Below are positions 10,201 to 27,272 of a stretch of DNA of 37,088 nucleotides, in pieces. A program made the translations under genes and the position numbers. Each line of letters starts with the position of its first letter. Within the stretch, counting starts at the first letter, position 1. The DNA lies in assembly GCA_902509695.1 (NCBI GenBank), contig CABWYP010000008.1, forward strand, positions 1-37,088, read 5' to 3'. Origin of the DNA: an uncultured Alphaproteobacteria bacterium (GTDB lineage: Bacteria; Pseudomonadota; Alphaproteobacteria; HIMB59). The notes beneath the pieces are model-generated. The model was not told where the DNA came from. It ran no database searches and saw nothing but the letters and a program-made list of their open reading frames with translations.

Positions 10201-13200
10201 TGGTCAGCTCACACTAAATGCGAATGGTTCTTATTCTTACGTTGCTAATCAAACAGCAGCCGATGCTCTCGATGCAGGTGACTCGGTTACCGATTCATTT
10301 AATTATACAATCAGTGATGGTACAGCTACAGATATAGGCACTATCACCATTACAGTCTTAGGTATTAACGATGCACCCGTCGCTCAAAATGATGTAGGTG
10401 TGATTGCGGAAGGCAGTACTTTAACAGTTGCCAATAGTGCGAACGCAAATGTGTCTGGCTCATACGATGCTACAGGAGAACACTCCGGTGATGTCATTGA
10501 TACTAGTTCTAGTTCCCATACAGATTCCGATGCGGATGCTTCCTCATCTCTTAGCATTACACATATTAAATTAAGCGGTGGTTCTAATTCCACGGTTGCT
10601 TCGAGCAGCTCTTATAATAGTAATGGAACTTCTATTACGGGCACTTATGGTACGATAACTATTGGAGCTGATGGTTCTTATACTTATGCGGCAACCACTG
10701 ATGCTACTGATGCTCTGGATGCAGGAGAGTCAGCGACTGATACTTTTGTTTATACGCTCTCCGATGGTACAGCCATCACCACAGCCAATATAACGATTAC
10801 AGTTCTGGGCGCTAATGATGGCCCTGTTGCTCAAAACGATACAGGAACAGTCAATGAAGATGCCACCCTCACCGTCAGTGATGGTGATGGCACAAGTACT
10901 GTAGCTGGCGCCTCTTATGTTGATAGTATTAGCACTCATAGCTTAGGCAATGCAAGCATGACATCGCCACAAGACGTAAAATTTAACAATGATGGTACAA
11001 AAATGTTTGTTGCCGCTGATGGTGGTGATGCAATTGTAGAGTACACACTATCTACTGGCTATGATATTTCGACCGCCTCCTATGATAGTAGCTTTGGTAT
11101 TTGGACTCAAGATCGCAACCCAAGGGCCTTAGCATTTAACAATGATGGAACAAAAATGTTTGTGGTAGGGGTGACGGGTCAAGACATTAATGAATACCAT
11201 CTTACTACAGGCTTCGATGTTTCTACTGCATCCTATGATAGTAGGTTTAGTGTTTCCAGCCAAGAAAATGACCCAAATGGTTTAGCATTCAATTCAGATG
11301 GTACAAAAATGTTTGTTTCTGGTGATGGTACTGGTGATGCTGTTAATGAATACACACTATCGACCGGTTTTGATGTTTCCACCGCTTCCTATGATAGTAA
11401 ATTTAGTACCCTGTCTCAAGATACCTCATCTCAAGGCCTAGCATTTAGCAACGACGGAAAAAAAATGTTTGTTGCGGGTAATACGGGAGATGATATTAAC
11501 GAATATACGCTCTCTACGGGCTTTGATGTTTCCACTGCTTCTTTTGTGGGTAGTTTTGATGTGAGTTCTCAAGGTACTCAGCCTACAGGCATTACCTTTA
11601 ATAATGATGGAACAAAAATGTTTATTACGGACTCGTCTGGAAGTTTGGGTTCTCATAGTGTGGATGAATACACACTTACTACTCCTTTTAGTTTAGTTGA
11701 TGTTAGCGGTGAACATACGGGTGATGTTATTGACTCAAGTAACACCTCTACTCGCGATACTGATGTTGACGTTGAAACTTTAACAGTGACTGCTGTTCGT
11801 CTTGGTTCTTCTGAGGGATCAGGTACGGCTGGTTCTGTGGGATCGGCTCTCACAGGTACATACGGTCAGTTAACCCTTAACTCAAATGGTTCTTATACGT
11901 ATGTTGCTAATCAAACAGCCGCTGATGCTTTAGATGCAGGCGACTCGGTTACGGATTCTTTTAATTACACCGTTAGTGATGGCACGGCTACAGATACTGC
12001 GGTGATTACTATTACAGTTTTAGGTATCAATGACACTCCAACCGCTCAAAATGATGTGGGTGTGATCGTGGAAGACGGCACGTTAACAGTGACTAACGGT
12101 GCTAATGCAACTCTTGATGGCTCTTATGATGCCACGGGAGAAAATTCTGGTGACCTGATGGATACCAGTTCTAGCTCTCACAGTGACTCTGACTCAGATG
12201 CCTCTGCTTCTTTGTCGATTACCCAAATCAAAAAAAATGGTGGTTCTAACTCTTCCGTAGCATCGGGAAGTTCTTATAATAGCAGTGGTACGCAGGTAAC
12301 TGGAACCTACGGTACTCTCACTATTGGTGCTGATGGATCTTATACTTACGCTGCTACTCAAGATGCAGCTGATCCTTTAGACGCGGGAGACACCGCTACT
12401 GATGTTTTTGTTTATACTCTCTCTGATGGCACAGCGACCACTACTGCGACTTTAACCATTACCATCCTTGGTGCGAATGATGCCCCTGTTGCTCAAAACG
12501 ATACAGGCACCGTCAATGAAGATGCAACGCTTACTGTTTCAAACGGTGGTAATGCAGCAATTGTTGCAGGTGCTTCGCATGATGGTTCACCTTATGCAAT
12601 TGATGAAGGCTCAATACGTTCTTTAACATTTAACAATGATGGTACCACAATGTTTGTTGTCCATGCTAGTACACCAGCTGTTATATCCAAACATGCTTTA
12701 AGTACTGCTTTTGATATAACAACTGCCTCTCAAAGCACTACATACGACATTAGTTCTCATACAACTAGTCCACGCGGTTTATTATTTAACAATGATGGTA
12801 CCAAGCTTTATATAAACTCCGATCAAAACTCTAACAAAAAGATTTATGAATTTTCTTTATCTACTGCTTACGATATATCCTCCCTATCATCACCTTCCTC
12901 AACTGTTGTTAGTGGTCAAGACGGAAGTCCTAAAGGCGTAGCTTTTAATGCTGATGGAAGCAAAATGTTTTTAATTGGAGACACTGGTAATACTGTTCAT
13001 GAATATTCTCTTTCGTCAGCTTTTGATACTACGACAATATCATACACAAGTAGAAGTTTAGACGTCAGTTCCAAAGAAGTTACCCCAAGAGGTCTTTCAT
13101 TTAATTCAACTGGTACAAAATTATTTATCACAGGCCAAAATAGTGATGAAATACACGAATACAATCTTAGTACGGGTTTTAACTTATCTACAGCGTCTTA

Positions 13201-16200
13201 TAACGGTGCATTTGATATGACTGGCACAGTTACAAAGGCAAATGACATAGTATTTAATAATGATGGAACAAAAGTATTTATAGGTCAAACAGGTACAAAT
13301 AAAATTTTTTCATATTCCCTTTCAAGTCCATTTAGTTTAGTTGATATAACCGGGGAAAATACAGGAGATGTTCTTCATACTAGCTCCTCATCGAATTTAG
13401 ATAGTGATGCTGACGATAGTGCCTCTTTAACAGTTACAGCAATTAGAACAGGTTCAAGTGAAGGTTCAGGCACATCTGGTTCCATTGGTTCAGCTTTGAC
13501 TGGTTCTTACGGTCAATTAACTATTGCTGCAAATGGATCTTATTCTTATGTGGCCAATCAAACAGCCGCTGATGCTTTAGATGCAGGAGATATAGTTACG
13601 GACTCGTTTAATTACACGGTTAGTGATGGCACTGCTACAGATACAGCGGTGATTACTATTACGGTTATTGGTATCAATGATACTCCAACTGCCCAAAACG
13701 ATGTGGGAGTTATAGTTGAGGATGGTACCTTAACAGTGGCAAATAGTGCTAACGCAACATTAACAGGTACTTATGATGCCACGGGAGAAAATTCTGGTGA
13801 CTTAATCGATACAAGTTCTTCTTCTCATACTGACTCTGACTCAGATACCTCTGCTTCTTTGTCGATTACCCAAATTAAGAAAGATGGAGGTTCTAATTCT
13901 GCTGTGGGTATTGGAAGTTCTTACAATAGCAATGGCACTCAAGTTACAGGAACATACGGAACGCTCACGATAGGCGCCGATGGCTCATATACTTATGCTG
14001 CTACTCAAGACGCAGCTGATGTATTAGATGCGGGGGAAAGCGCTACTGATGTTTTTGTCTATACTCTTTCTGATGACACAGCGACCACAACTGCAAATTT
14101 AACAATTACTATTTTAGGCGCCAATGATGCCCCTGTTGCCAACAACGATGCTGGTGTGATAGTTGAGGACGGTACCTTAACAGTTTCTAACGGGTCAAAC
14201 GCTAATGTAACAGGAAATTATGACGCCACTGGCGAACACTCTGGAGATGTTTTAGATACCAGTGCTGCTTCTGAAGATACAGATGTTGATGTTGAAACAC
14301 TAACTGTTACTGCTATTCGAACTGGTTCATCTGAAGGATCAGGTACCGCTGGTACAGTGGGTTCTGCTTTAACAGGAACCTATGGTCAGTTAACATTAAA
14401 TGCGAATGGTTCTTATTCTTACGTTGCTAATCAAACAGCAGCTGATGCACTGGATGCAGGAGATGAAGCTGTAGACTATTTCAATTACACTGTCAGTGAC
14501 GGAACAGCAACTGACATAGCGGTGATCAGTATTAAAGTTTTAGGTGTCAATGATACACCAGTAGCTCAAAATGATGTGGGTGTAATTTTAGCGGGTAACA
14601 CTTTAACGGTTGCCAATAGTGCAAACGCTAATGAGTCTGGCGGATCTTATAATGCCACGGGGGAACATTCTGGTGACGTGATTAATACCAGCAGTGGATC
14701 ACATCAAGATAGTGATGCGGATGCTTCTGCTTCATTAACTGTAACTCAAATTAAAAAGAATGGTGGTTCTAACTCAAGCGTATCTTCGGGTAGTTCTTAT
14801 AACAGTAGTGGAACTTCTGTAACAGGTACTTACGGTACACTGACTATCGGTGCGGATGGTTCTTATACTTATGCTGCTACTGCAGATGCGGCTGATGGAA
14901 TTGCATCGGGAGAAACCGCAAACGATGTCTTTATTTATACTTTAAGTGATGGAACAGAAACAACGACTGCCAATATTACAATTACTATCTTAGGTGAAAA
15001 CGATAGTCCTATTGCACAAAATGATGTGGGTGTGATTATGGAAGGCAGCACTTTAACAGTTGCTAATAGCGCAAATGCTAATGTTTCTGGAAGTTTTGAT
15101 GCAACAGGCGAACACTCTGGTGATGTGATTGACACTAGCTCAAGTTCTCACACAGATACTGATCCAGATACTAGCAATACGTTAACAATCACTCATATTA
15201 AAAAAGACGGTGGATCAAATTCAACAGTTTCTTCGGGTAGTTCTTATAACAGTAGTGGAACTGCGGTCACTGGTGCCTACGGTACTTTAACTATTGGTGC
15301 AGATGGTTCCTATAGTTATGCAGCTCAATCCAATATTTCAGGTTTTGATGCAGGAGAGACACTGACTGATACATTCACATACACAGTTTCAGATGGCACA
15401 GCAACTACGACAGCTAATATTGTAATCACTCTTTTAGGAGATGATGGCTCTTCTAATAACGCACCTGTAGCTCAGAATGACGTGGGTGTAATTGCTGAAG
15501 ATAGCACCTTAACAGTTGCGAACAGTGCTAATGCAACACTCAGTGGCTCTTATGATGCCACCGGCGAAAACTCTGGTGATGTTATGGATACGAGCTCAAG
15601 CGGTCATACTGATAGTGACGCTGATGGGGACTCCATTACTGTTACTCAAATCAGAAAAAGTGGTGGCTCAGATTCTACGGTTTCTTCAGGTAGCTCCTAT
15701 AACAGCAGCGGAACTTCGGTAACTGGAACTTACGGTACTCTTGTTATTGGTGCGGACGGTTCTTATACTTATGCAGCCGATCAATCTGCAGCTGACGATC
15801 TTGATGCTGGCGACTCAGTGACTGACAGCTTTATTTATACTATCTCCGACGGAACAGCTACTGCTACTGCTACTCTTACAATCACAGTTTTGGGTATTAA
15901 CGACGCCCCAACAGCAGTCAACGACACAGATAGTGTTAATGAAGATGGCACAGTTACCAAGACAGGGGCCCAGGATGATGTACTTACAGATGACAGCGAC
16001 CCTGATGACTCAGCCACTCTAACAGTTACTGCAATACAGCCTAGCGGCGGATCTTCCTCTAATGTTTCTTCTGGAAGTACCTATGATAGCAGCGGAACCA
16101 GTGTTACTGGAACTTATGGTACTCTTATTATAGGTGCCGATGGTTCTTACACATACACCGCTGATCAATCCGCAGCTGATGATTTAGACGCTGGTGATAC

Positions 16201-19200
16201 TGTTGACGATGTCTTTACTTATACTGTCTCTGATGGCACAACAACCACAACAGCAACAATTACTATTACAGTTACGGGTGTCAATGATACACCAGTGGCT
16301 CAAAATGATGTGGGTGTGATTGCTGAAGATAGCACGCTTACCGTTACCAATGGTGCCAATGCGAATGTTTCAGGCTCTTATGACGCCACAGGAGAGCACT
16401 CTGGTGATGTTATGGACACAAGCTCTAGTGGACATACTGATAGTGACGCTGATGACTCAGCAACCTTGACAATTACTCAAATTAAAAAAGATGGAGGCTC
16501 TAACTCTTCTGTCTCTTCCGGTAGTTCCTACAATAGTAGCGGAACTTCAGTCACAGGTACCTATGGTACTTTAACTATAGGAGCCGATGGTTCTTATACT
16601 TATGTTGCAGACCAAACAGCAGCCGATGCTTTAGACGCTGGTGACAGCGCTGATGATGTTTTTGTGTATACTCTTTCTGATGGCACTGCTACTACAACTG
16701 CCAATATCACAATTTCTGTTTTAGGTATTAATGATGATCCTGCAGCAATTGATGATACCGATAGCGTTAGTGAAGACGGAACAGTAACAAAGACAGGTTC
16801 CCAAGATGATGTTCTCAACGATGATACAGATGCTGATGACTCATCATCATTAACTGTTACTGCAATTCAACCTAGTGGCGGTTCTTCCTCTAATGTTTCT
16901 TCTGGAAGTACCTATGATAGTAGCGGAACTTCAGTCACAGGTACCTACGGTACTCTTATCATTGGTGCCGATGGTTCTTATACATACACTGCTGATCAAT
17001 CAGCCGCTGATGACCTTGATGCTGGCGATTCAGCAAACGATGTCTTTACCTATACTGTCTCTGATGGCACAACAACTACAACGGCAACCATAACCATCAC
17101 GGTTAATGGTATTAACGATACTCCTGTTGCCCAAAACGACGTGGGTGTGATCGCAGAGGACAGTACTTTAACTGTCGCCAATGGCGATAATGCTAACGTT
17201 TCAGGCTCTTATGATGCCACCGGCGAACACTCAGGTGATGTCATTGATACAAGTTCCAGTTCTCATACCGATAGCGATGCTGATGACTCAGCATCGCTTA
17301 CCATTACTCAAATTAAAAAGGATGGTGGGTCTAACTCAGCAGTTTCTTCTGGTAGTTCCTACAATAGCAGCGGAACCTCTGTAACAGGTACTTACGGTAC
17401 GCTGACCATAGGAGCTGATGGTTCTTATACTTATGTAGCGGATCAAACTGCAGCGGATGCCCTAGATGCCGGTGACAGTGCTAATGATGTGTTTGTGTAT
17501 ACACTTTCTGATGGAACAGCTACGACTACAGCCAACATCACTATTTCTGTTTTAGGTATTAATGATGATCCTGCAGCAGTTGATGATACTGATGTTGTCA
17601 GTGAAGGAGCCACCGTCACAAAGACAGGGTCCCAAGACGATGTTCTCAATGACGATACTGATGCAGATGACAGTTCCAGTTTAACAGTTACAGCAATACA
17701 ACCAAGTGGCGGGTCCTCCTCCTCAGTCACTTCAAGTAGTACCTACGAAAGCAATGGTACGACAGTCACAGGAACCTACGGCACCCTCACCATTGGTGCC
17801 GATGGTTCCTATACCTACACTGCTAACCAAGATGCAGCGGATGCTCTCGATGACTCAGAGTCAGCGACAGATGTTTTCACCTATACAGTTTCTGATGGTA
17901 CGTCAACCGACACAGCAACCATAACCATCACAGTTAATGGTTCTAATGATGCTCCTGTTGCTAGAAACGATACGGGTACAGTTGAAGAAGACGCCACTTT
18001 AACAGTTAGTGATGGAGATAACGCTAATGCCGTAAGTGCCACTTCTTATGTTGATGGTTTTTCTGTCAGCTCACAAGAAAGCAACCCTCAAGGATTTAGA
18101 TTCAATAACGACGGTACCAAAATGTTCGTAATCGGCTCAAATGGAGATGATATCAATGAATACACTCTCTCCACTGGATTTGATGTTTCAACCGCCTCCT
18201 TTGTTGATAGTCTTGATATTAGTTCCCAAGAGACAGGTCCTCGTGATTTAGCTTTCAATAGTGATGGAACCAAGATGTTTGTTGTTGGGGTACAAGGTGA
18301 TGATGTCAATGAATATACCCTTTCTACCGCTTTTGACGTTTCAACATCCTCTTTTGTTGATAGTAAAGACATTAGCGGCCAAGATGGTAACCCTACAGGA
18401 TTAGCCTTTAATCAAGACGGCACTAAGATGTTTATTGCTGGAAACGCAGGAGATGACGTCAATGAATATACCTTATCTACAGGGTTTGATGTCTCTACGG
18501 CATCTTTCGTAGATAGTTTTTCTGTATCCTCACAAGATGCTCAACCAAATGGCTTAACATTTAACAGCGATGGTTCGAAAATGTTTGTTGTTGGAAATCA
18601 GGGAAATGACATTAATGAGTATGATTTAAGTTTAGGATTTGATGTTTCCACTGCTTCTTTTGTAGGAGCTTTAGATGTTAGCTCTCAAGATAGTTCCCCT
18701 AAAGCAATAAGCTTTAATCATGATGGCACTAAGTTATTTGTTTTGGGTTCTACAAATCAATCTGTTTTTGAATATACATTAACCTCACCTTTTAGTTTGA
18801 TTAACGTAGACGCTGAACATTCAGGCGATGTCATTGATACAAGCAATACTAGTTCTTATGACACAGATGTCGACGTGGAGACTTTAACAGTAACAGCTGT
18901 GAGATTAGGTAGCTCTGAAGGATCAGGAACCGCGGGTTCTGTGGGATCTGCCTTAACAGGAACTTATGGTCAACTGACACTTAACTCTAATGGTTCTTAC
19001 ACATATGTTGCAAATCAATCTGCAGCTGATGACTTAGATGCTGGTGATGTTGTCTACGATTACTTTAATTACACAGTTAGTGATGGAGATGCAACAGACA
19101 TTGCAGTCATTACAATCACTGTTGTTGGTATTAACGACACCCCAGTAGCTGTTAATGATACAGATAGCGTGAATGAAGATGCGACAGTGACTAAAACAGG

Positions 19201-22153
19201 TTCGCAAGATGATGCACTTTATGATGACACGGATGCTGATGACTCAGACTCTTTGACAGTTACCGGAATTGCACCAAGTGGTGGTTCGACATCTACTGTT
19301 TCTGAGGGTAGCACTTATGCAAGTGGAGGGACAACAGTCACAGGAACTTATGGAACACTTATTATAGGTGCTGATGGATCTTATACTTATACAGCCGATC
19401 AAGACGCAGCTGACGATTTAGATTTAAATGATACTGCAACAGACGTTTTCACTTACACAGTTTCAGACGGAGCGAATACAACTACGGCAACCATTACGAT
19501 CACTGTCACAGGTATTAATGACGACCCAGTTGCTCAAAATGACGTGGGTGTCATCGCAGAAGATAGCACTTTAACCGTTGCAAATGGCGCCAATGCTAAT
19601 GTTTCGGGCACATATGATGCCACAGGAGAGCACTCCGGTGATGTGATTGACACAAGTTCCAGTTCTCATACCGACAGCGATGCTGATGACTCAGCTACTT
19701 TAACAATTACTCATATTAAAAAGAGTGGCGGGTCTAACTCTACAGTCTCTTCTGGAAGCTCTTATAATAGCAGTGGAACTTCAGTGACCGGTACTTATGG
19801 TACTTTGACAATTGGAGCTGATGGATCGTATACTTATGCTGCTACTGAGTCCGCAGCTGATGATCTTGATGTGGGAGATGAAGTCACGGATGTTTTCACT
19901 TACACACTTTCTGATGGCACAGAAACTACTACGGCAAACATTACCATAACAGTTATTGGCATCAATGATGATCCTACCGCTGTTAACGATACAGACAGTG
20001 TTACTGAGGATGAAAGGGTTACAAAAAGAGGAACCCAAGATGATGTTCTGAATGATGATACTGACCCAGATGATAGTGCCAGTTTAGTTGTAACAAACAT
20101 TTCTCATACCAATGGCAATAGCGATACTGTTTCTTCTAGCACGACTTTTGCTACTGGCACAACTGTCGTTGGTACTTACGGAACACTTACAATAGGAGCT
20201 GATGGTTCTTATACTTATATAGCTGATCAAGATGCAGCTGATAGTATTGCTGATGGTTCTAGTGAAACGGATGTCTTTACTTACACAGTTTCAGATGGCA
20301 ATGGCGGTACAGACACTGCTACTTTAACAATTACAGTTAGTGGATCAGACAATGAAGTGGTGGCTGTAACGGATACAGGAGCCGTTGATGCAAGTAGTAC
20401 TCTCTCCAAGGGCGTTACAAGCGCTGGTCTTCTGTCCAACGACACAGATAACGGCAGTGCTGCACTTGATGTAGGTGAGGCTTCAGTCAGTGCTATTCGC
20501 ACTGGAAGAGAAAATAGTACTGGCACCAGCGGTACAATTGGTTCAACGTTAGTAGGTACTTACGGTACCTTGACTCTTAACTCTGATGGTACTTATACAT
20601 ACGCCGCAACTACTGCTGCTGCGGATGCGCTAGCGCCTTTGGAGACTGCTGTAGATTATTTTACTTATACCATTACAGATGGCACTAGCACCGATACAGC
20701 AGAACTTAGAATTACAGTTACAGGTGTTAACAACGCCCCTACTTCTACAAGCCCTCCAACTATTAATGCTGCTGAAAATCAAAGAATTATCATACAAACC
20801 AAGACTTTTTTTGATGACCCTGACCCTAAAAATAACACATTTGGTCAGCTAACTTATTCTACTAGTGGGCTTCCGGCGGGTCTTAAAATTAACGACGCGG
20901 GAAGAGTAACGGGTCGATTAGAAGAAGGAACCTATACTTTTACTGTAACTGCAACTGACGGAGGCAATCTTTCAACACAACAGACATTTACAATTGTCGT
21001 TGGTAAACCTGGAAAACCAGGTGAAGAAAAACCTGCTCCTATACGAGTTACCCCTAAAACTTTTGATGATGCTGTAGCAAATAAAGTAGTTGTTTTCCAA
21101 GAAGCAACAGAGCAAGTAGAATTTAATATGGAAACTCTAGAAGTAGGAAGTTCTTTAGAGTCCATTGTTAAAGAATATTCTTTTAATGGCGGCATGAAGG
21201 TTATTGACGTTGCTGTTGAGGACTTAAATATTGATCAAAGTGGACGTATTGGAGTTCAAGAAGATACAATTTTAGGCTTTGCTATCGGTGATGATTATAG
21301 ACTAAGCGTGAAACAATATACCGGAACTTTAGAAGATGGATCTTCATTGCCTGAATGGGTAAGAGTAGATCCTTCAACTGGACAAACACTTGTTCAATTC
21401 CCAGATAATGTATATTCCATCGATGTCAAAGTCATAGCCATTGATAAGGATAATACCACAAGAGAAATTAACGTAACTTTAGATAAGGGTGCTGTAAGCC
21501 AAGATAAATCACTTAAGCGAGACTTAAAACCTTTTGTAGATCGAAGCGCATCATTGAAGACAGAGGTTGTAGTTGATGACAAAGGCCAAGTAATACTTGG
21601 TGCATCAAACGGTGAATTAAATGATGCTAATCGTTCTGCTAATCTCAATGGTACTAATTTATTAAATTCTGAAAATGAGAATTCTAGTGATGAGCCACAG
21701 TCGTCAAATATAGACAATGATTTAGAATCTTCTGCAGCCATGAAATTAGCATCAGTGGCAAGAGAAGGAAATTCTGTCAAAGTCAAAATCAATGATGGGA
21801 ACAGCAACAACGTTACTCAATACAGCCTCAAAATGGCAAATCAAGATAACAACCCTCGAGCTGGGCAAATACCTAATTGGGTACAAATTGATTCTCAAAC
21901 TGGTGAAATTCAGGCCCAACCTCCAGAAAATGTTGATAGTATTTCACTTCAAATTCTAGCGGAAGATGATGATGGGACTATCAGAACCTTGGATATAGAG
22001 GTTGATTTTACTTTAGATGACTTATCTTTGAATATTGACCAACCTAATTCTGATGGAAAAATTGTTGAGTTTGCTTCCCTTCAGGACCAAATCAATTTAG
22101 AATTTGAGGGGTATGAAAATTATGGCGATAAATTTACTAAAGCTACTAGTTAG
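7283..22153 (+). CDS. Giant LEPR-motif/DUF4347/VCBS-repeat surface protein (4956 residues)
   Basis: This is a very large, acidic, Asp/Ser/Thr/Gly-rich protein, probably exported and surface-bound or released. No classical signal peptide is seen. Instead residues 39-49 read LEPRIMFDGAA, a motif known from the N-termini of other very large bacterial proteins. Residues about 88-240 match DUF4347, with HIIGHASAG (H144) and FYGCNLAQG (C187). Residues about 250-460 are unrecognised. Residues 462 to about 4485 hold 23 VCBS-type Ig-like repeats, three of which carry an inserted block of five propeller-like blades. Three cadherin-like modules follow near 4486-4575, 4655-4740 and 4830-4915. There are no RTX nonapeptides. 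The frame is intact over 14.9 kb. The C-terminus overlaps the next adaptor gene. Function as an adhesin or surface binder is inferred from the repeats. Confidence 0.9.
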   Translation: MKLGLISLYYSACKIIGEVGDISLSKDNKTYSQLHIQLLEPRIMFDGAAVYAASEAIDLLDDQQSASRDNSSLSSDLNSVIENPNSRKEIVFIDSGVDDYQTIVNAIDSSKSIYLIDANDNGFLKMQNILQDQSSIDAVHIIGHASAGQVVLGNSILNADTISSFSNTLQSIGNSLTQDGDLLFYGCNLAQGEQGKLLLQQIGNITQADIAASDDITGQGGDWELEHNYGIVETNGIEVVDYNSSLLQTGISSLNGFVENTGTNLRAGTSAGSHASSASNHSDGYKPYVIAYERTVTSGTYSFYKTNNTSSGFEENDNGVRTAGPNINSGTTSYNASSDPMNVYLVYASENSGRNTTRSVTFEGEIKGVWFNMDNIVSYSGVSKSGATYHTESQHGSGGQNAYSTEKLKWNWGTNININSKPNHKSDWFGVDTDSNTLYIGFNNGANHGDTIRVFTDAGGAAPVARNDYGWVNEDSTLTVSNGANANVSGSYDASGEHTGDVINTSSSSYADTDADGDTLTVTAVRLGSSEGSGTSGSVGSALTGTYGQLTLNSNGSYTYVANRSAADALDAGDTAYDYFNYTVSDGTETDTAVIRIAVLGLNDDITAVNDYGVVTEDATLTVTNGESHTNSGSYDTHGEHSGDISANDTDADASSTSTITAIRTGSSEGSGTSGSIGSALTGTYGQLTLNANGSYTYVANQSAADALDVGDSVWDFFNYTVSDGTDTDTALIQIKVLGANDTPVAQNDEGLIAEGSTLSVSNGANANVSGSYDATGEHTGDVMDTSSSSHSDSDADASASLSITGIRTGQESGSGTSGSVGSSLTGTYGALTINANGSYSYAANSSISGLGSGDTVIDYFTYTVSDGSATDTAQLKITVIGVGNTAPVARNDVGVIEEDSTLSVSDGANANETGGSYNATGEHSGDVINTSSTTHYDTDADGDTLTVTAIRLGSSEGSGTAGTVGQALTGTYGQLTLNANGSYSYVANQTAADALDAGDSVTDSFNYTISDGTATDIGTITITVLGINDAPVAQNDVGVIAEGSTLTVANSANANVSGSYDATGEHSGDVIDTSSSSHTDSDADASSSLSITHIKLSGGSNSTVASSSSYNSNGTSITGTYGTITIGADGSYTYAATTDATDALDAGESATDTFVYTLSDGTAITTANITITVLGANDGPVAQNDTGTVNEDATLTVSDGDGTSTVAGASYVDSISTHSLGNASMTSPQDVKFNNDGTKMFVAADGGDAIVEYTLSTGYDISTASYDSSFGIWTQDRNPRALAFNNDGTKMFVVGVTGQDINEYHLTTGFDVSTASYDSRFSVSSQENDPNGLAFNSDGTKMFVSGDGTGDAVNEYTLSTGFDVSTASYDSKFSTLSQDTSSQGLAFSNDGKKMFVAGNTGDDINEYTLSTGFDVSTASFVGSFDVSSQGTQPTGITFNNDGTKMFITDSSGSLGSHSVDEYTLTTPFSLVDVSGEHTGDVIDSSNTSTRDTDVDVETLTVTAVRLGSSEGSGTAGSVGSALTGTYGQLTLNSNGSYTYVANQTAADALDAGDSVTDSFNYTVSDGTATDTAVITITVLGINDTPTAQNDVGVIVEDGTLTVTNGANATLDGSYDATGENSGDLMDTSSSSHSDSDSDASASLSITQIKKNGGSNSSVASGSSYNSSGTQVTGTYGTLTIGADGSYTYAATQDAADPLDAGDTATDVFVYTLSDGTATTTATLTITILGANDAPVAQNDTGTVNEDATLTVSNGGNAAIVAGASHDGSPYAIDEGSIRSLTFNNDGTTMFVVHASTPAVISKHALSTAFDITTASQSTTYDISSHTTSPRGLLFNNDGTKLYINSDQNSNKKIYEFSLSTAYDISSLSSPSSTVVSGQDGSPKGVAFNADGSKMFLIGDTGNTVHEYSLSSAFDTTTISYTSRSLDVSSKEVTPRGLSFNSTGTKLFITGQNSDEIHEYNLSTGFNLSTASYNGAFDMTGTVTKANDIVFNNDGTKVFIGQTGTNKIFSYSLSSPFSLVDITGENTGDVLHTSSSSNLDSDADDSASLTVTAIRTGSSEGSGTSGSIGSALTGSYGQLTIAANGSYSYVANQTAADALDAGDIVTDSFNYTVSDGTATDTAVITITVIGINDTPTAQNDVGVIVEDGTLTVANSANATLTGTYDATGENSGDLIDTSSSSHTDSDSDTSASLSITQIKKDGGSNSAVGIGSSYNSNGTQVTGTYGTLTIGADGSYTYAATQDAADVLDAGESATDVFVYTLSDDTATTTANLTITILGANDAPVANNDAGVIVEDGTLTVSNGSNANVTGNYDATGEHSGDVLDTSAASEDTDVDVETLTVTAIRTGSSEGSGTAGTVGSALTGTYGQLTLNANGSYSYVANQTAADALDAGDEAVDYFNYTVSDGTATDIAVISIKVLGVNDTPVAQNDVGVILAGNTLTVANSANANESGGSYNATGEHSGDVINTSSGSHQDSDADASASLTVTQIKKNGGSNSSVSSGSSYNSSGTSVTGTYGTLTIGADGSYTYAATADAADGIASGETANDVFIYTLSDGTETTTANITITILGENDSPIAQNDVGVIMEGSTLTVANSANANVSGSFDATGEHSGDVIDTSSSSHTDTDPDTSNTLTITHIKKDGGSNSTVSSGSSYNSSGTAVTGAYGTLTIGADGSYSYAAQSNISGFDAGETLTDTFTYTVSDGTATTTANIVITLLGDDGSSNNAPVAQNDVGVIAEDSTLTVANSANATLSGSYDATGENSGDVMDTSSSGHTDSDADGDSITVTQIRKSGGSDSTVSSGSSYNSSGTSVTGTYGTLVIGADGSYTYAADQSAADDLDAGDSVTDSFIYTISDGTATATATLTITVLGINDAPTAVNDTDSVNEDGTVTKTGAQDDVLTDDSDPDDSATLTVTAIQPSGGSSSNVSSGSTYDSSGTSVTGTYGTLIIGADGSYTYTADQSAADDLDAGDTVDDVFTYTVSDGTTTTTATITITVTGVNDTPVAQNDVGVIAEDSTLTVTNGANANVSGSYDATGEHSGDVMDTSSSGHTDSDADDSATLTITQIKKDGGSNSSVSSGSSYNSSGTSVTGTYGTLTIGADGSYTYVADQTAADALDAGDSADDVFVYTLSDGTATTTANITISVLGINDDPAAIDDTDSVSEDGTVTKTGSQDDVLNDDTDADDSSSLTVTAIQPSGGSSSNVSSGSTYDSSGTSVTGTYGTLIIGADGSYTYTADQSAADDLDAGDSANDVFTYTVSDGTTTTTATITITVNGINDTPVAQNDVGVIAEDSTLTVANGDNANVSGSYDATGEHSGDVIDTSSSSHTDSDADDSASLTITQIKKDGGSNSAVSSGSSYNSSGTSVTGTYGTLTIGADGSYTYVADQTAADALDAGDSANDVFVYTLSDGTATTTANITISVLGINDDPAAVDDTDVVSEGATVTKTGSQDDVLNDDTDADDSSSLTVTAIQPSGGSSSSVTSSSTYESNGTTVTGTYGTLTIGADGSYTYTANQDAADALDDSESATDVFTYTVSDGTSTDTATITITVNGSNDAPVARNDTGTVEEDATLTVSDGDNANAVSATSYVDGFSVSSQESNPQGFRFNNDGTKMFVIGSNGDDINEYTLSTGFDVSTASFVDSLDISSQETGPRDLAFNSDGTKMFVVGVQGDDVNEYTLSTAFDVSTSSFVDSKDISGQDGNPTGLAFNQDGTKMFIAGNAGDDVNEYTLSTGFDVSTASFVDSFSVSSQDAQPNGLTFNSDGSKMFVVGNQGNDINEYDLSLGFDVSTASFVGALDVSSQDSSPKAISFNHDGTKLFVLGSTNQSVFEYTLTSPFSLINVDAEHSGDVIDTSNTSSYDTDVDVETLTVTAVRLGSSEGSGTAGSVGSALTGTYGQLTLNSNGSYTYVANQSAADDLDAGDVVYDYFNYTVSDGDATDIAVITITVVGINDTPVAVNDTDSVNEDATVTKTGSQDDALYDDTDADDSDSLTVTGIAPSGGSTSTVSEGSTYASGGTTVTGTYGTLIIGADGSYTYTADQDAADDLDLNDTATDVFTYTVSDGANTTTATITITVTGINDDPVAQNDVGVIAEDSTLTVANGANANVSGTYDATGEHSGDVIDTSSSSHTDSDADDSATLTITHIKKSGGSNSTVSSGSSYNSSGTSVTGTYGTLTIGADGSYTYAATESAADDLDVGDEVTDVFTYTLSDGTETTTANITITVIGINDDPTAVNDTDSVTEDERVTKRGTQDDVLNDDTDPDDSASLVVTNISHTNGNSDTVSSSTTFATGTTVVGTYGTLTIGADGSYTYIADQDAADSIADGSSETDVFTYTVSDGNGGTDTATLTITVSGSDNEVVAVTDTGAVDASSTLSKGVTSAGLLSNDTDNGSAALDVGEASVSAIRTGRENSTGTSGTIGSTLVGTYGTLTLNSDGTYTYAATTAAADALAPLETAVDYFTYTITDGTSTDTAELRITVTGVNNAPTSTSPPTINAAENQRIIIQTKTFFDDPDPKNNTFGQLTYSTSGLPAGLKINDAGRVTGRLEEGTYTFTVTATDGGNLSTQQTFTIVVGKPGKPGEEKPAPIRVTPKTFDDAVANKVVVFQEATEQVEFNMETLEVGSSLESIVKEYSFNGGMKVIDVAVEDLNIDQSGRIGVQEDTILGFAIGDDYRLSVKQYTGTLEDGSSLPEWVRVDPSTGQTLVQFPDNVYSIDVKVIAIDKDNTTREINVTLDKGAVSQDKSLKRDLKPFVDRSASLKTEVVVDDKGQVILGASNGELNDANRSANLNGTNLLNSENENSSDEPQSSNIDNDLESSAAMKLASVAREGNSVKVKINDGNSNNVTQYSLKMANQDNNPRAGQIPNWVQIDSQTGEIQAQPPENVDSISLQILAEDDDGTIRTLDIEVDFTLDDLSLNIDQPNSDGKIVEFASLQDQINLEFEGYENYGDKFTKATS
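10904..11700 (+). repeat. Nested propeller-like block 1 (five about 48-residue blades)
   Basis: This block is inserted inside VCBS unit 6, between its opening strand (NEDATLTVSDGD) and its GEHTGDV segment, at about residues 1208-1473. Five tandem units share FNNDGTKMFVxGxxGxDxNEYxLSTGFDVSTASY, with a linking SSQxxxPxGLAF. The repeated DGTKMFV strand and the length resemble beta-propeller blades (NHL, lactonase or similar). No exact family is recognised. Confidence 0.75.
12560..13350 (+). repeat. Nested propeller-like block 2 (five blades, most diverged)
   Basis: This block sits inside VCBS unit 8 at the same point as in unit 6, at about residues 1760-2022. Five units are seen with FNNDGTTMFVV, FNNDGTKLYIN, FNADGSKMFLIG, FNSTGTKLFITG and FNNDGTKVFIG as core strands, ending in SPFSLVD as block 1 does. 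It is clearly more diverged from blocks 1 and 3, so the insertion is not simply a recent copy. Confidence 0.72.
18028..18805 (+). repeat. Nested propeller-like block 3 (five blades)
   Basis: This block sits inside VCBS unit 19, again between EEDATLTVSDGD and AEHSGDV, at about residues 3582-3840. The five units with FNNDGTKMFVIG, FNSDGTKMFVVG, FNQDGTKMFIAG, FNSDGSKMFVVG and FNHDGTKLFVLG are close to block 1. This suggests the whole VCBS-plus-propeller unit was duplicated within the gene. Confidence 0.75.
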
Positions 22154-22850
22154 TCTTTTTACAATTTTATTTTTGTATTCAACACAGGCTTACTCTCAAG
22201 ATAGAGAGTCAAGAGCATTAGTTGTTGCCTCACAAGAAGCCGTCTTGTCTAGTGAACTGGCAGCACGAATTGAAAATATTGCTGTGAAAGAAATGCAAAG
22301 ATTTAAAAAAGGCGACTTACTAATTAAGTTCGATTGTAGTTTGTACGAGGCTCAAAAAGATGTTGTAAGTGCAAATGCAAACAGCGCTTTAATTAAATTG
22401 AAAAGTGACGAGCAAATGTTGCAAATGAGATCTATTGGTAAATATGAATTAGAACTATCAATTTCAGAATATGAAAAAGCAAAATCAGAATTACTTATCG
22501 CTGAGCTTAATGTTGAAAGATGCCAAATTAATGCACCTTTTGACGGGGCTGTAGAGGAAGTTGTCGTGAACACTTATGAGACAATCCAACCCCAAGTAGA
22601 ATTAATGAAAATTATTCAAACAGACATATTAGAGTTAGAAATGGTAGTCTCCAGTGAATGGATTTCATGGTTGAAAATTGGCCATCCTATTAAAGTTTAT
22701 ATAGATGAAATTCAAAAAGAATTTAACGCCTCCATCAGTGGTATCGGAGCTAATGTGGATGCGGTGAGTCAGACTATCCAATTAAAAGGGACGATTACTG
22801 ATACAAGCCCCGCCCTTCTCCCTGGAATGAGTGGTCGCGTTGTATTTTGA
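22122..22850 (+). CDS. Small periplasmic adaptor (RND/HlyD-type membrane fusion protein)
   Basis: This is a periplasmic adaptor of about 242 residues. The N-terminal hydrophobic stretch LLKLLVSLFTILFLYSTQAYSQ is a signal peptide. The rest is a compact membrane-fusion-protein core: a lipoyl-like half (LSSELAARIENIAVKEMQRFKKGDLLIKFD), a short helical hairpin (about residues 70-135), the second lipoyl half (CQINAPFDGAVEEVVVNTYETIQ), and a barrel ending in TDTSPALLPGMSGRVVF. In-frame starts exist at 22104 (TTG), 22113 and 22122. GAGGGG lies ten bases before 22122 but only one base before 22113, so I take 22122. The gene overlaps the giant gene by 32 bases, implying translational coupling. It probably bridges the inner-membrane parts to the TolC-like channel. 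Confidence 0.85.
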   Translation: MAINLLKLLVSLFTILFLYSTQAYSQDRESRALVVASQEAVLSSELAARIENIAVKEMQRFKKGDLLIKFDCSLYEAQKDVVSANANSALIKLKSDEQMLQMRSIGKYELELSISEYEKAKSELLIAELNVERCQINAPFDGAVEEVVVNTYETIQPQVELMKIIQTDILELEMVVSSEWISWLKIGHPIKVYIDEIQKEFNASISGIGANVDAVSQTIQLKGTITDTSPALLPGMSGRVVF

Positions 22851-24181
22851 GCCAAGAACAATTAAATCGTTTATCTAGAATATTTTCCTTTGAAAAGAAG
22901 TTAAGGGAAGCACAATCGTTTGTTGAAATAAGATATACCGTAACCAATGAACTCCGAAGCATTGCCCCTTTTATGTATGCTTTTTTTGGAGCATGGGTTA
23001 CCCCCAATAAGTTTAAAATTGAAGCTATTTCTGATATAGCAGTAGTTGAGCAAACCTCCTCAACAACTACTCTAGCTCAAAAGATAATTCGTCAAAAATT
23101 AAAAGAGGGATCTCCTGAAACTCACACTTTCTCTTTGAGTAAAAACGACCTTATCCCAGCTCGAGATGAAAATCCCCTACCAAATCAATTTTTATGGGTG
23201 CCATGCTTATCTACCCAAAAGGGCCCACAGGCTGCTTTGCTATTAGTTCGTAATGAAGAATGGAGTGAGCAAGAAATAGAATACATCAGACATTTAAGTA
23301 ATTCCATAGGTCACGCCATGGGATCTCTCAAAGAGAACAATTTTTTCGAAACTGCAGCAAAGACGATTAAAAATACTTGGTTTCAGTTTATAGTATTGGC
23401 CGGAATTACAGCGAGTCTGTTTTATCCAGTTTCCTTATCAACAATTGGACAGGCTGAAATTGTGCCCAAAGACCCCAACGTTATCAATGCACCTATTGAT
23501 GGTGTCATCAAAGAGGTTTTTGTTGAAAATAACGATGAAGTATCTTTGAACCTCCCTCTCATCTCTTTTGAAAAGACTCAACTTCAAAACGATTATGACT
23601 TAGCAGAACAAGAGCTACGCGTGATTGAAACAGAATTATTGCAAGCTCGGCAGTCCTCATTTCAAAGTAAGGCTGATAAAGCACTCGTGAGTCAATTAGA
23701 GACTAAAATAAAGTTAGCTCAAGAAAACGCTAACTACAAAAAAATACTCTTAGAAAGATCTACAATATCCTCCCCAGCTCACGGGATAGCGGTTGTTAAG
23801 AATAAGTCTCTGTTATTGGGTAAGCCATTCAATATTGGAGAAACAATTATGGTTGTAGCAAAACCTTCTGATGTATTGGTAGAAATTTTAATGCCTGTCA
23901 AAGACTCCATCACTATTAAAAAAGATGCAAATATCAATGTCTTTTTAGACTCCGATCCAATGAATGTATTAAAAGCGAAAGTTATAAAATTTTCTTATGA
24001 GCCCGAAATAACATCTGAGAATTTATTGGCCTACAGAGTGACAGCTCAACTAGCAGAATCAAAAAACCCTCCTCGAATTGGACTTCGAGGGTCAGCTAAA
24101 ATTTTTGGAAATGAAGTCAAACTTTTTTTTTATCTTTTTAGAAAACCAATAATTTTTGTAAGACAGACATTTGGCTTATAA
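22847..24181 (+). CDS. GAF-domain HlyD-like inner-membrane adaptor
   Basis: This is a 444-residue adaptor with a cytosolic sensor. Residues about 20-160 look like a GAF domain (FLWVPCLSTQKGPQAALLLVRNEEWSEQEIEYIRHLSNSIGHAM). Residues 178-197 are a single membrane span, so the remainder is periplasmic. HlyD elements follow: AEIVPKDPNVINAPIDGVIKEVFVENNDEV (about 203-232), a coiled coil (245-300), then ISSPAHGIAVV and a barrel to about 415. The end KLFFYLFRKPIIFVRQTFGL is hydrophobic. The start is TTG at 22847, overlapping the previous stop (TTGA); the next in-frame Met is residue 43, too deep in the domain. It abuts the M50 gene with no gap. GAF domains bind small ligands in other proteins, so ligand-gated export is possible but unproven. 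Confidence 0.83.
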   Translation: MSQEQLNRLSRIFSFEKKLREAQSFVEIRYTVTNELRSIAPFMYAFFGAWVTPNKFKIEAISDIAVVEQTSSTTTLAQKIIRQKLKEGSPETHTFSLSKNDLIPARDENPLPNQFLWVPCLSTQKGPQAALLLVRNEEWSEQEIEYIRHLSNSIGHAMGSLKENNFFETAAKTIKNTWFQFIVLAGITASLFYPVSLSTIGQAEIVPKDPNVINAPIDGVIKEVFVENNDEVSLNLPLISFEKTQLQNDYDLAEQELRVIETELLQARQSSFQSKADKALVSQLETKIKLAQENANYKKILLERSTISSPAHGIAVVKNKSLLLGKPFNIGETIMVVAKPSDVLVEILMPVKDSITIKKDANINVFLDSDPMNVLKAKVIKFSYEPEITSENLLAYRVTAQLAESKNPPRIGLRGSAKIFGNEVKLFFYLFRKPIIFVRQTFGL

Positions 24182-26284
24182 ATGATAACCCCCTCTATCA
24201 GGCAAAACTTACAGCTACTTCCTGGAACTCCAGCAGAAGATGGCTCCCCCTCTTGGCTGCTTTACGATAATTTAAGAAATAAATATTTCACTTTAGGTAT
24301 CAACGCCTTTCGAATGCTAAAACACTGGATAGCAGGTATGGACTCCAAAAAATTTATAGAGGAAATTGAAAAAAAAGGATTAATTATAGAAGAAGACCAG
24401 TTAAATGATTTTATAAACTTTTTAAAAATAAACAGTTTAATTTCTCATACTACTTCTGAGGATGTTCAAATATTGGTTAATCAACATCGGTCTCAACAAA
24501 AACATTGGTTTTTAAAACTCATTCATAATTATCTTTTTTTTAAGATTCCTTTAATCAAGCCAGATAACTTTTTAGATAAAACATTAAATTTAGCTAAATT
24601 TTTTAGTCAAAAAACCATTAGAGGTACAATCTACATTTTTGGTTTATTCGGATTTTATTTTGTTATCCAACAATGGGATGAATTTATATCTACCTTTTTA
24701 TATTTTTTTAATTGGAATGGGTTTTTACTCTATTTATTAGCTTTAGTAGGGGTAAAAGCTATTCATGAATTAGGTCACGCATATACTGCAAAAAATTATG
24801 GTTGTAATGTTAATTCTATGGGAATTGCTTTTTTAGTATTTTTTCCTTTTTTATACACAGACAACACTAATGCTTGGAGGCTGAGAGACCATAAAAAAAG
24901 GCTTACTATCAATTTTGCTGGTATCTCTACAGAACTTCATTTGGCCTTAATAGCAACATTTTTTTGGGGAATAGCTGAGCCAGGTATGATTAAAAGTATT
25001 GCCTTTTTCATTGCAACTACTGGTTGGATCTCGTCACTTTTGATAAATATCAGCCCATTTATGAGATTTGATGGGTACTATGTTTTCGCAGATTATCTAA
25101 AAATAGAAAATCTACAACCACGAGCCTTTGCTCTAGCTAAGTGGAAATTAAGGAAGTGGATACTAGGTTTTCATTTAAAAGCACCCGAGCAAATAAATAT
25201 TTCAAAACAGAATTTGATTATTCTTTACGCTTGGTCAACTTGGATTTATCGTTTTTTTCTTTTCCTAGGGATAGCATTTCTTGTTTATCATTTTGCTTTT
25301 AAGCTTTTAGGAATTTTCCTTTTTGTTGTTGAGATTTTTTGGTTTATTGCACTGCCTATTTTAAGAGAAATGAGAGAGTGGTGGAGACTTCGTACTCACT
25401 TGGCTTTATCATTTCAATTACTAAGGTCTATAAGTATCCTATTAATTTTATCGTTAATTTTATTTTATCCTTGGAAGAATTTCCAAAATATTCCTGCAAT
25501 TTATCAATCTGAAAAATTCATAGAAATTTATCCTCCAATAAATTCTCAAATTTTAGATATCTTTATTTCAGAAAAGCAAAATGTCCAAAAAAATCAAAAT
25601 TTATTAAAACTAGACTCACCTGCACTTATTTCACAAATAAAAATTATTTCTAAAGAGTTAGAATTAATCAATATCAAAATCAATAATGCCCTAGATTTAG
25701 AAAATAATAGAGCAGATCTATTGCCTTTGAAGAGCGAAAAACAAAAAATAGAAATCAATTTACAAAACTTAAAAAAAATTAAAGACTCACTTCTCATTAA
25801 AGCTCCATTTTCAGGAGAGATTACATTTTTAAATGAAATGAATAAAAACCAATGGTTTAATGAAGATACTCCATTGCTTTCTTTAGTTAATAAAAATTCT
25901 TTTGAATTAGTTGCTTTTCTATCAGAGAAAGAAATATCATCCTTAGATAGATCTCAATTGACATCTTTTATCCCCTCTACTACTGATCATTATAAAATTT
26001 CAGCTAGGATTTCTGATATTAGTAATTCTCCTGTTGATAATTTTGAATTGTATCCAATGGTTACCTCGTTATATGATGGTCCTATAGCGGTAAGAGAAAA
26101 CCCTTCAGGTGGAATTCAATCCGAAAGGGCTTATTACAAAGTTACTTTGGATATTGAACAAAATCCAATTTTAAATGAAAGAAAACTCACTGGGGTGGTC
26201 AATGTAGGTGTTAAGCCATATAGCTTTTTTAATCAATTTTTAGACTTTACAGCTGCAACACTTATCAGGGAATTAAGTTTCTAA
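24182..26284 (+). CDS. PqqD-like / M50 site-2-type metalloprotease / HlyD fusion protein
   Basis: This is a 700-residue inner-membrane protein of the putative peptide zinc metalloprotease group (YydH-like). Residues about 1-95 resemble a PqqD/RRE-type winged-helix domain (PSWLLYDNLRNKYFTLGINAFRML), a fold that binds leader peptides in peptide-modifying systems. Then come multiple membrane spans with the intramembrane zinc motif HELGH at 195-199 and the third-ligand region SPFMRFDG (D297), both intact. Residues about 440-690 form a HlyD-like periplasmic part: YPPINSQILDIFISEKQNV, coiled coil 480-535, IKAPFSGEITFL. ATG 24182 directly follows the preceding TAA. It is the best candidate for the core of the export complex; whether it cleaves anything is not known. 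Confidence 0.88.
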   Translation: MITPSIRQNLQLLPGTPAEDGSPSWLLYDNLRNKYFTLGINAFRMLKHWIAGMDSKKFIEEIEKKGLIIEEDQLNDFINFLKINSLISHTTSEDVQILVNQHRSQQKHWFLKLIHNYLFFKIPLIKPDNFLDKTLNLAKFFSQKTIRGTIYIFGLFGFYFVIQQWDEFISTFLYFFNWNGFLLYLLALVGVKAIHELGHAYTAKNYGCNVNSMGIAFLVFFPFLYTDNTNAWRLRDHKKRLTINFAGISTELHLALIATFFWGIAEPGMIKSIAFFIATTGWISSLLINISPFMRFDGYYVFADYLKIENLQPRAFALAKWKLRKWILGFHLKAPEQINISKQNLIILYAWSTWIYRFFLFLGIAFLVYHFAFKLLGIFLFVVEIFWFIALPILREMREWWRLRTHLALSFQLLRSISILLILSLILFYPWKNFQNIPAIYQSEKFIEIYPPINSQILDIFISEKQNVQKNQNLLKLDSPALISQIKIISKELELINIKINNALDLENNRADLLPLKSEKQKIEINLQNLKKIKDSLLIKAPFSGEITFLNEMNKNQWFNEDTPLLSLVNKNSFELVAFLSEKEISSLDRSQLTSFIPSTTDHYKISARISDISNSPVDNFELYPMVTSLYDGPIAVRENPSGGIQSERAYYKVTLDIEQNPILNERKLTGVVNVGVKPYSFFNQFLDFTAATLIRELSF

Positions 26285-26351: not shown

Positions 26352-27272
26352 ATGATTATTTTAACTCAATCAAATAAAGACTTATCAACAAAAGAGTCCA
26401 CAAAGATAGGATCGCCAAGTTCTTTTTTTAAACTTAAGTGGATTGAAGAACAGGAAAGAATTAAGACTTTTAATCACCTCGACACAAAAGAAATTAGAAA
26501 TCCTTTTAAAGATAGACTGCATGTCACAAATTCTAAAGTGTCAGACTTTGAAAAATTTCAAGAAATCATGGAATCAAAAAGATTAAGTGATACAAAAATT
26601 TTCACTAAATTAAAGGCCATTATCAAACCCTACCAAACATTAGAATTTCAAAAAATTTCTGAAGAATTAGAGGCACTAGATTGCTTATTCTTAATACAGA
26701 ATAAAAAGATTATGAATTCCCATATGATCAAAACACTTACACAGAGCCTAAAACAAATTGAAAAATATTGTCAAAAAATAAAAAATGAGATTAATAACTC
26801 AATGAAAAAATCCAGAGTAAAAAAAGAAATGACTCCAAGTGATATGATATTAAAGAATAAATTAGGAGGTGATATTTCAAGTTCTAATATTTTCGAAGAA
26901 TTTTCTATTATTGCAAAAGAATGTCAGTATCTATCCGAAGCTAATAACACCGATGATTATAAGAGGACCTCTCCTTTATTTCCAGAAATGGAAAATCAAG
27001 AAATACCTTTAGATTACTTTATTATTTCTTTAAAAAATCTTTTTGAATGTGTAGATTTAAAAAATTTTAAAATAAATGATAAAAGCTCTGAGCTAAAAAC
27101 TTTTTGTTGGGAAGGAGTGCTACAAACCCCATCAATATGTTACACGCCCTACTCAACATTTCTGAAAGCATACAAGAGATGTCTCAGCAAACCGCCTGCC
27201 TACTTTGGACTATCTCATATTGTTAAAGAGAATGATTTTCTAATAACTAGAGAGAAAATATTAGTTTTTTAA
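26352..27272 (+). CDS. Unknown 306-residue cytosolic protein, giant-protein regulon
   Basis: I do not recognise this protein. It has no signal peptide or membrane span and is Lys/Glu/Ser/Asn-rich and largely helical by composition. One amphipathic helical stretch is at about residues 85-150 (KLKAIIKPYQTLEFQKI ... TLTQSLKQIEKYCQKIKNEI). A more ordered C-terminal part is rich in aromatic and Cys residues (ECVDLKNFKIND, TFCWEGVLQTPSICYTPYSTFLKAYKRCLSKPPAYFGL). It begins 67 bases after the M50 gene on the same strand with a site-2 palindrome between them. Its stop codon overlaps the convergent MFS gene's stop. The position suggests a cytosolic helper or regulator of giant-protein export, but that is only context. 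Confidence 0.6.
   Translation: MIILTQSNKDLSTKESTKIGSPSSFFKLKWIEEQERIKTFNHLDTKEIRNPFKDRLHVTNSKVSDFEKFQEIMESKRLSDTKIFTKLKAIIKPYQTLEFQKISEELEALDCLFLIQNKKIMNSHMIKTLTQSLKQIEKYCQKIKNEINNSMKKSRVKKEMTPSDMILKNKLGGDISSSNIFEEFSIIAKECQYLSEANNTDDYKRTSPLFPEMENQEIPLDYFIISLKNLFECVDLKNFKINDKSSELKTFCWEGVLQTPSICYTPYSTFLKAYKRCLSKPPAYFGLSHIVKENDFLITREKILVF

Follow-up and report, generated by a model that had tools for sequence, protein, structure and literature searches.

PqqD/RRE folds bind leader peptides, and an ATP-driven pump is thought to define type I secretion. A close functional precedent for the protein studied here is the daptide protease MpaP, which has been described as an RRE-dependent, M50-type intramembrane enzyme that cuts off the leader (PMC10036551) and in which, likewise, a leader-recognition domain at the N-terminus is joined to an M50 membrane protease. 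In PCATs, it is a domain of the inner-membrane transporter that reads and cuts the leader, and the limit for C39-processed substrates is roughly 10 kDa (PMC8277102). Much longer proteins are represented by the NCBIfam family LEPR-XLL (NF012209), whose N-terminal LEPR motif is of the same kind as the one described below, and similar giants or S-layers have been handled as ordinary type I secretion system (T1SS) cargo (PMC7730722, PMC13274458).

The window, by which we mean the whole stretch of 37,088 nucleotides analyzed here, comes from an uncultured alphaproteobacterium whose genome is 65% complete, and it carries a gene cluster that resembles each of these systems in part. Its M50 protein falls below the equivalog cut-off for daptide proteases, has an additional HlyD adaptor, and is accompanied by no modifying enzymes, and the presumed substrate has thousands of residues and is not a RiPP; MpaP is thus a precedent in function and not evidence of family membership. 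TolC and HlyD-type adaptors are common to the cluster and to type I secretion (HlyB-HlyD-TolC, and AMS/PCAT with C39), but here there is no ABC ATPase, the candidate leader reader is an RRE and the protease is of the M50 type, and the cargo is far larger than C39-processed substrates. With the giant RTX/Bap adhesins (LapA, BapA, SiiE, and the DDxP proteins) the cluster shares a giant cargo built of cadherin/Ig-like repeats (NF045619 and TIGR01965), whereas its putative signal is N-terminal rather than C-terminal and its operon has no retention-protease pair. As compared to LEPR-XLL, the motif in the window is of the FDGAA type; leaders of the LLSA type go with a sister exporter. The parts (RRE folds, an RRE-M50 leader peptidase, LEPR-XLL, and HlyD/TolC) are known, but we found no account, in the open literature searched, of their assembly into an ABC-less exporter for giant proteins, and no open-access paper was found to describe an RRE-M50-HlyD/LEPR system.

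Results

The cluster comprises a giant protein, two adaptors (HlyD1 and HlyD2), an RRE-M50-HlyD protein, and a divergent TolC-family gene. The giant (7283-22153, + strand; 4956 aa, with a likely true start at TTG 7352) is adhesin-like, with Cadherin_4, VCBS, and tandem-95 repeats by Pfam and NCBIfam profiles. It is followed by HlyD1 (22104-22850, +), an RND-type periplasmic adaptor (TIGR01730, E 1.4e-32) with an N-terminal hydrophobic segment, and by HlyD2 (22847-24181, +), which has an N-terminal domain, one hydrophobic segment (residues 179-200), and a HlyD domain (PF13437, E 2.3e-9). These three genes lie 5' of the M50-HlyD gene (24182-26284, +; 700 aa) and are closely packed or overlapping. 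The outer-membrane channel (4773-7199, - strand; PF02321, E 9e-19) is encoded divergently from the giant. The locus thus has the TolC-type channel and HlyD adaptor that characterize type I systems, but no ABC ATPase was found among the ORFs of the cluster. Some features of these proteins are worth recording in their own right. The TolC-family protein ends in He_PIG (Ig-like) and SPOR (E 1e-4) domains, which is unusual for an outer-membrane channel, and the N-terminal region of HlyD2 (22847-23380, ∼175 residues ahead of the hydrophobic segment) matched no Pfam or NCBIfam family and looks GAF-like by eye.

The motif LEPRIMFDGAA (DNA 7397-7429) occupies residues 39-49 of the longest ORF of the giant. 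In two relatives (L039 and L040), the frame is interrupted by a stop codon, so that translation has to begin at a GTG 15 residues ahead of LEPR; because a TTG at 7352 in the window aligns with this forced start and has AGGAG upstream, it is probably the true start, and the motif would then lie at residues 16-26. The giant has no hydrophobic 19-residue stretch at its N-terminus of the kind expected for a Sec-type signal, its residues 1-83 are predicted to be disordered, and Pfam and NCBIfam profiles detected neither an RTX domain nor a C-terminal T1SS signal domain in it. The initial annotation, which had described a giant with a leader-like N-terminus and no Sec signal, was therefore correct except in the probable numbering of the motif. 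The leader (7352-7459, +) was delimited by comparison of 79 distinct leaders and is disordered in the model; the conserved block starts ∼3 residues ahead of LEPR and continues for 17 residues beyond it. The consensus, from 78 distinct leaders, is [IL]xALEPR[ILM][ML][FL]D[GA]AAxATAx[ED], in which the search imposed L, E, R, and D but left the flanking A, AAxAT, and ED positions free. The window copy scores 13.9 bits against NF012209 (LEPR-8K; cut-off 17), with the match at the correct place. Immediately 3' of the leader is a DUF4347 domain (7550-7987, +; PF14252, E 4e-45) with a predicted caspase-like fold and a conserved His144/Cys187 pair, as judged from conservation and a fold search; it may be an autoprotease.

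Because the sequence evidence for the N-terminal domain of the M50-HlyD protein (residues 1-112, core about 1-90; 24182-24517, +; predicted cytosolic) is weak, its assignment to the PqqD/RRE fold was accepted mainly on structure and transitive homology. Alone, the domain has no PqqD match in Pfam, and a direct profile comparison against four classical PqqD-like sequences gave no significant match, so proof of PqqD identity by sequence only was abandoned. Among 58 relatives, PqqD was nevertheless the commonest weak Pfam match (8 of 58; best E 0.0056), and PqqD-type chaperones lead the NCBIfam matches (WgkC-type PqqD, E 5e-5). The sister exporter family reaches 35.9 bits for PqqD, above the Pfam cut-off of 23.4, and its PqqD domain matches that of the window family by profile comparison (hhalign, E 8e-8). 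An AlphaFold model of residues 1-112, built with 58 homologs, has a pLDDT of 86 overall and about 91-94 over residues 1-80, with the winged-helix-like order strand-strand-strand-helix-helix-helix. In a Foldseek search of the PDB, all matches with a probability of at least 0.95 were RiPP leader-binding domains: TbiB1 with the TbiA leader (5v1u/5v1v), CteB (5why), PqqD (5sxy), and TfuB1 with its leader (6jx3). The E-values were modest (0.008-0.12), but the match set was uniform. The predicted fold thus bears out the earlier proposals that the M50 fusion starts with a PqqD-like domain and that this domain is RRE-like, with leader-bound RRE structures coming first in the PDB, and residues 1-90 are, on the strength of the model, assigned to the PqqD/RRE fold.

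The M50 (site-2 protease-like) membrane domain (24518-25462, +; PF02163, E 3.3e-9) has the HExxH signature as HELGH (residues 195-199; 24764-24778) and the third-ligand Asp in an xDG motif (Asp297 in MRFDG; 25070). His195, Glu196, His199, and Asp297 are invariant in 15 diverse members with 28-74% identity to the window protein, and because of this invariance the domain is likely an active enzyme. Residues 28-403 match the NCBIfam profile of the daptide intramembrane protease (NF041824, daptide_HExxH; E 5e-37), with 127.8 bits against the equivalog cut-off of 300. The remainder of the protein (25499-26284, +) is a HlyD-type periplasmic adaptor (PF13437, E 2.4e-11). No daptide biosynthetic genes were seen in the list of window ORFs. 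The suggestion that the locus couples a peptide-maturation module to export did not hold, and a RiPP cluster was ruled out, since there is neither a RiPP precursor nor a modifying enzyme nearby.

To place the motif in a wider context, we consider 398 Pseudomonadota genomes, 69 of which have a full M50-HlyD exporter. The strict pattern LExRxxFD[GA]A occurred in 56 genomes, and 53 of these also had the exporter (Fisher p = 1.2e-47); where motif and exporter were on the same contig, 44 of 45 motifs lay within 35 kb of it. In several of the 16 exporter genomes lacking the strict motif, a variant leader is encoded next to the exporter, and the variants include LEPRILLDAA and LEQRIAFDAA. A relaxed search found LEPR-type leaders in most of ten strict-negative exporter genomes and only background strings in 40 exporter-free genomes. 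A chance origin of the motif was ruled out, as the reversed pattern gave ∼4 matches and the exceptions resemble chance strings. In many genomes tagged giants outnumber exporters, and the tag is also found on orphan giants (1985-5517 aa) encoded at a distance from the exporter. Several tagged giants have no DUF4347 (among them that of Eleftheria and some orphans of genomes G100, G077, and G085), so the motif is not merely part of that domain; because such orphans keep it, the tag is more than an attachment to DUF4347 and, from these sequence patterns, is probably a trans-acting address.

A sister class of exporter (class B), related at about 300 bits to that of the window (class A), is found in a comparable cluster that contains large ORFs. 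Its PqqD domain is divergent (YRGxxWYVLQD...MDGxRTV), and its giants start with LEPRFLLSA, MEPRLLLSA, or LEERLLLSA; at loci L251-L263 and L279-L288, which have LLSA-type leaders, the giants can exceed 6,500 aa. The pattern LExRxLLSA occurred in 15 of the 398 genomes, and the first scan found the class B exporter in 11 of the 15 (p = 5e-13). That scan scored two candidates per genome, so that a class B copy beside two class A copies escaped it (G065); direct search added G065 and G296, for 13 of 15, and the remaining two resemble chance strings. The FDGAA motif was in no class-B-only genome, and no cross-pairing was seen in the 398 genomes. The two pairings, FDGAA with class A and LLSA with class B, are thus essentially mutually exclusive.

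All members of classes A and B that were examined have the PqqD domain, whose form differs from one leader subtype to the other. Co-variation of leader and RRE, which the initial annotation had led us to look for, was accordingly seen between classes, where the subtypes switch together, but not at the level of residues within class A: there, leader distance correlated with the RRE (partial Mantel r = 0.27, p = 0.0005) about as well as with the M50 core (0.24), and an RRE-specific co-variation was dropped. Because leader distance tracks the M50 core equally, the receptor is not narrowed to the RRE, and whole-operon inheritance could account for part of the subtype association. Of the original idea that the motif is an address or cleavage tag read by the RRE-like domain, it is the address behavior toward the exporter family that stands, as seen in the 53 of 56 genomes, the orphan giants, and the subtype switch.

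The absence of a pump extends beyond the operon. No T1SS ABC protein of the HlyB/PrtD/LssB kind scored over the cut-off in the window's genus, where only MsbA- or PglK-type proteins were found. Four relatives that have the system and are 86-94% complete possess one ABC exporter each, of the MsbA type where scanned (G019 and G013). Some larger genomes with the system, such as G207, G247, and G117, also encode bona fide T1SS ABC proteins, and these may recruit an unlinked pump. The machine is widespread: a single genome collection contains at least 595 such loci, and the gene order is conserved in Azospirillum, Variovorax, Kosakonia, Burkholderia, and on E. coli plasmids. An almost identical exporter gene is present in 24 of 5,426 complete E. 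coli genomes. In one E. coli plasmid copy (L025, 2319-22070), the operon of five genes is flanked by IS5- and IS1-like elements with no ATPase between them.

Discussion

Because the tag is almost confined to exporter-bearing genomes, our findings suggest a previously undescribed, tag-guided export machine that works without the usual ATP-driven pump. Specifically, we favor, with a probability of roughly 60%, a leader-guided export machine for giant adhesins that has no ABC ATPase and that captures and cuts the leader with a daptide-like RRE-M50 protein. The giant would be made in the cytosol, with an unfolded leader ending in LEPRxMFDGAA in place of a Sec signal. In the inner membrane, the M50-HlyD protein would capture this leader with its cytosolic PqqD/RRE domain, probably by beta-strand addition, and hand it to the membrane site of the M50 domain, which would cut it, probably within or just after FDGAAxATA; capture and cutting would follow the daptide logic. 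The chain would pass by way of HlyD1, HlyD2, and the HlyD part of the M50 protein to TolC with no ABC ATPase, and folding of the repeats outside could, as a conjecture, provide part of the driving force, for which an unlinked ABC or PMF pump could also be recruited. Direct binding of the leader by the RRE, its cleavage, the route, and the energy source are what we infer here. A wider proposal, to which we would give slightly less than even odds, is that such loci constitute an undescribed, ABC-independent class of envelope secretion, in which RRE-M50-HlyD proteins read LEPR in the cytosol, cut in the membrane, and deliver giants to TolC. Leader and receptor would come in two or more specificities, and the class would span SAR11-type marine bacteria, Nitrospira, and many Proteobacteria.

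The reader of the leader need not be the PqqD domain. LEPR could be an export address recognized by the N-terminal domain of HlyD2 or by the M50 groove, with the PqqD domain a regulatory or docking relic; a large N-terminal part of HlyD2 likewise lies outside the periplasm, and leader divergence follows the M50 core as closely as it does the RRE. We consider this unlikely in view of the leader-binding role of PqqD/RRE folds, the leader-bound complexes that are the best structural matches, and the retention of the domain, in subtype-specific form, by all class A and class B members examined. It has also to be asked which protease acts on the leader. The conserved His144/Cys187 of DUF4347, constantly spaced in most giants checked, and the caspases among its fold matches would fit removal of the leader by the giant itself, leaving the M50 domain to act elsewhere, for example in release or quality control. 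However, the giants that keep the leader without DUF4347 (in Eleftheria and among the orphans), together with an exporter that always retains its M50 catalytic residues, make autocleavage distinctly improbable.

An export signal may, on the other hand, not be what the motif is. Two-step T1SS adhesins have TolC-linked N-terminal retention modules (Smith et al. 2018, as cited in PMC7730722), and in these adhesin-like giants the motif might similarly be a retention or anchoring element, comparable to the LapA module, that acts in the periplasm or at TolC rather than as a cytosolic address. Since the conserved block is ∼20 disordered residues with no folded plug, and since its subtype switches with an exporter bearing a cytosolic leader-binding fold, we regard this as very unlikely. 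Ordinary type I secretion, powered by a housekeeping ABC exporter (MsbA-like or unlinked) with the M50-HlyD protein only maturing the product, would account for the TolC and HlyD parts and for the T1SS ABC genes of the larger genomes. It fits poorly with the relatives of the window's genus whose only ABC exporter is of the MsbA type, with the IS-bracketed plasmid operon, and with the lack of an RTX or C-terminal T1SS signal domain in the giant, and we give it little credence.

If the leader-guided machine is real, the LEPR-XLL motif, a marker of very long bacterial proteins, gains both a function and a partner, the reach of leader-reading RRE domains widens beyond small RiPPs to include secreted giants, and there is a TolC-dependent route without an ATP-driven pump. 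Because the machine is so widespread, it may be the means by which many bacteria, very small marine species among them, bring their largest proteins to the surface. Two further features of the window deserve mention. The giant contains, at 10981-11535, an array of ∼153-bp repeats with FNxDGTKMFV units that is distinct from its VCBS repeats, and 3' of the exporter lies a gene for a 306-aa protein (26352-27272) that has no family match and is absent from the plasmid copies of the operon examined.
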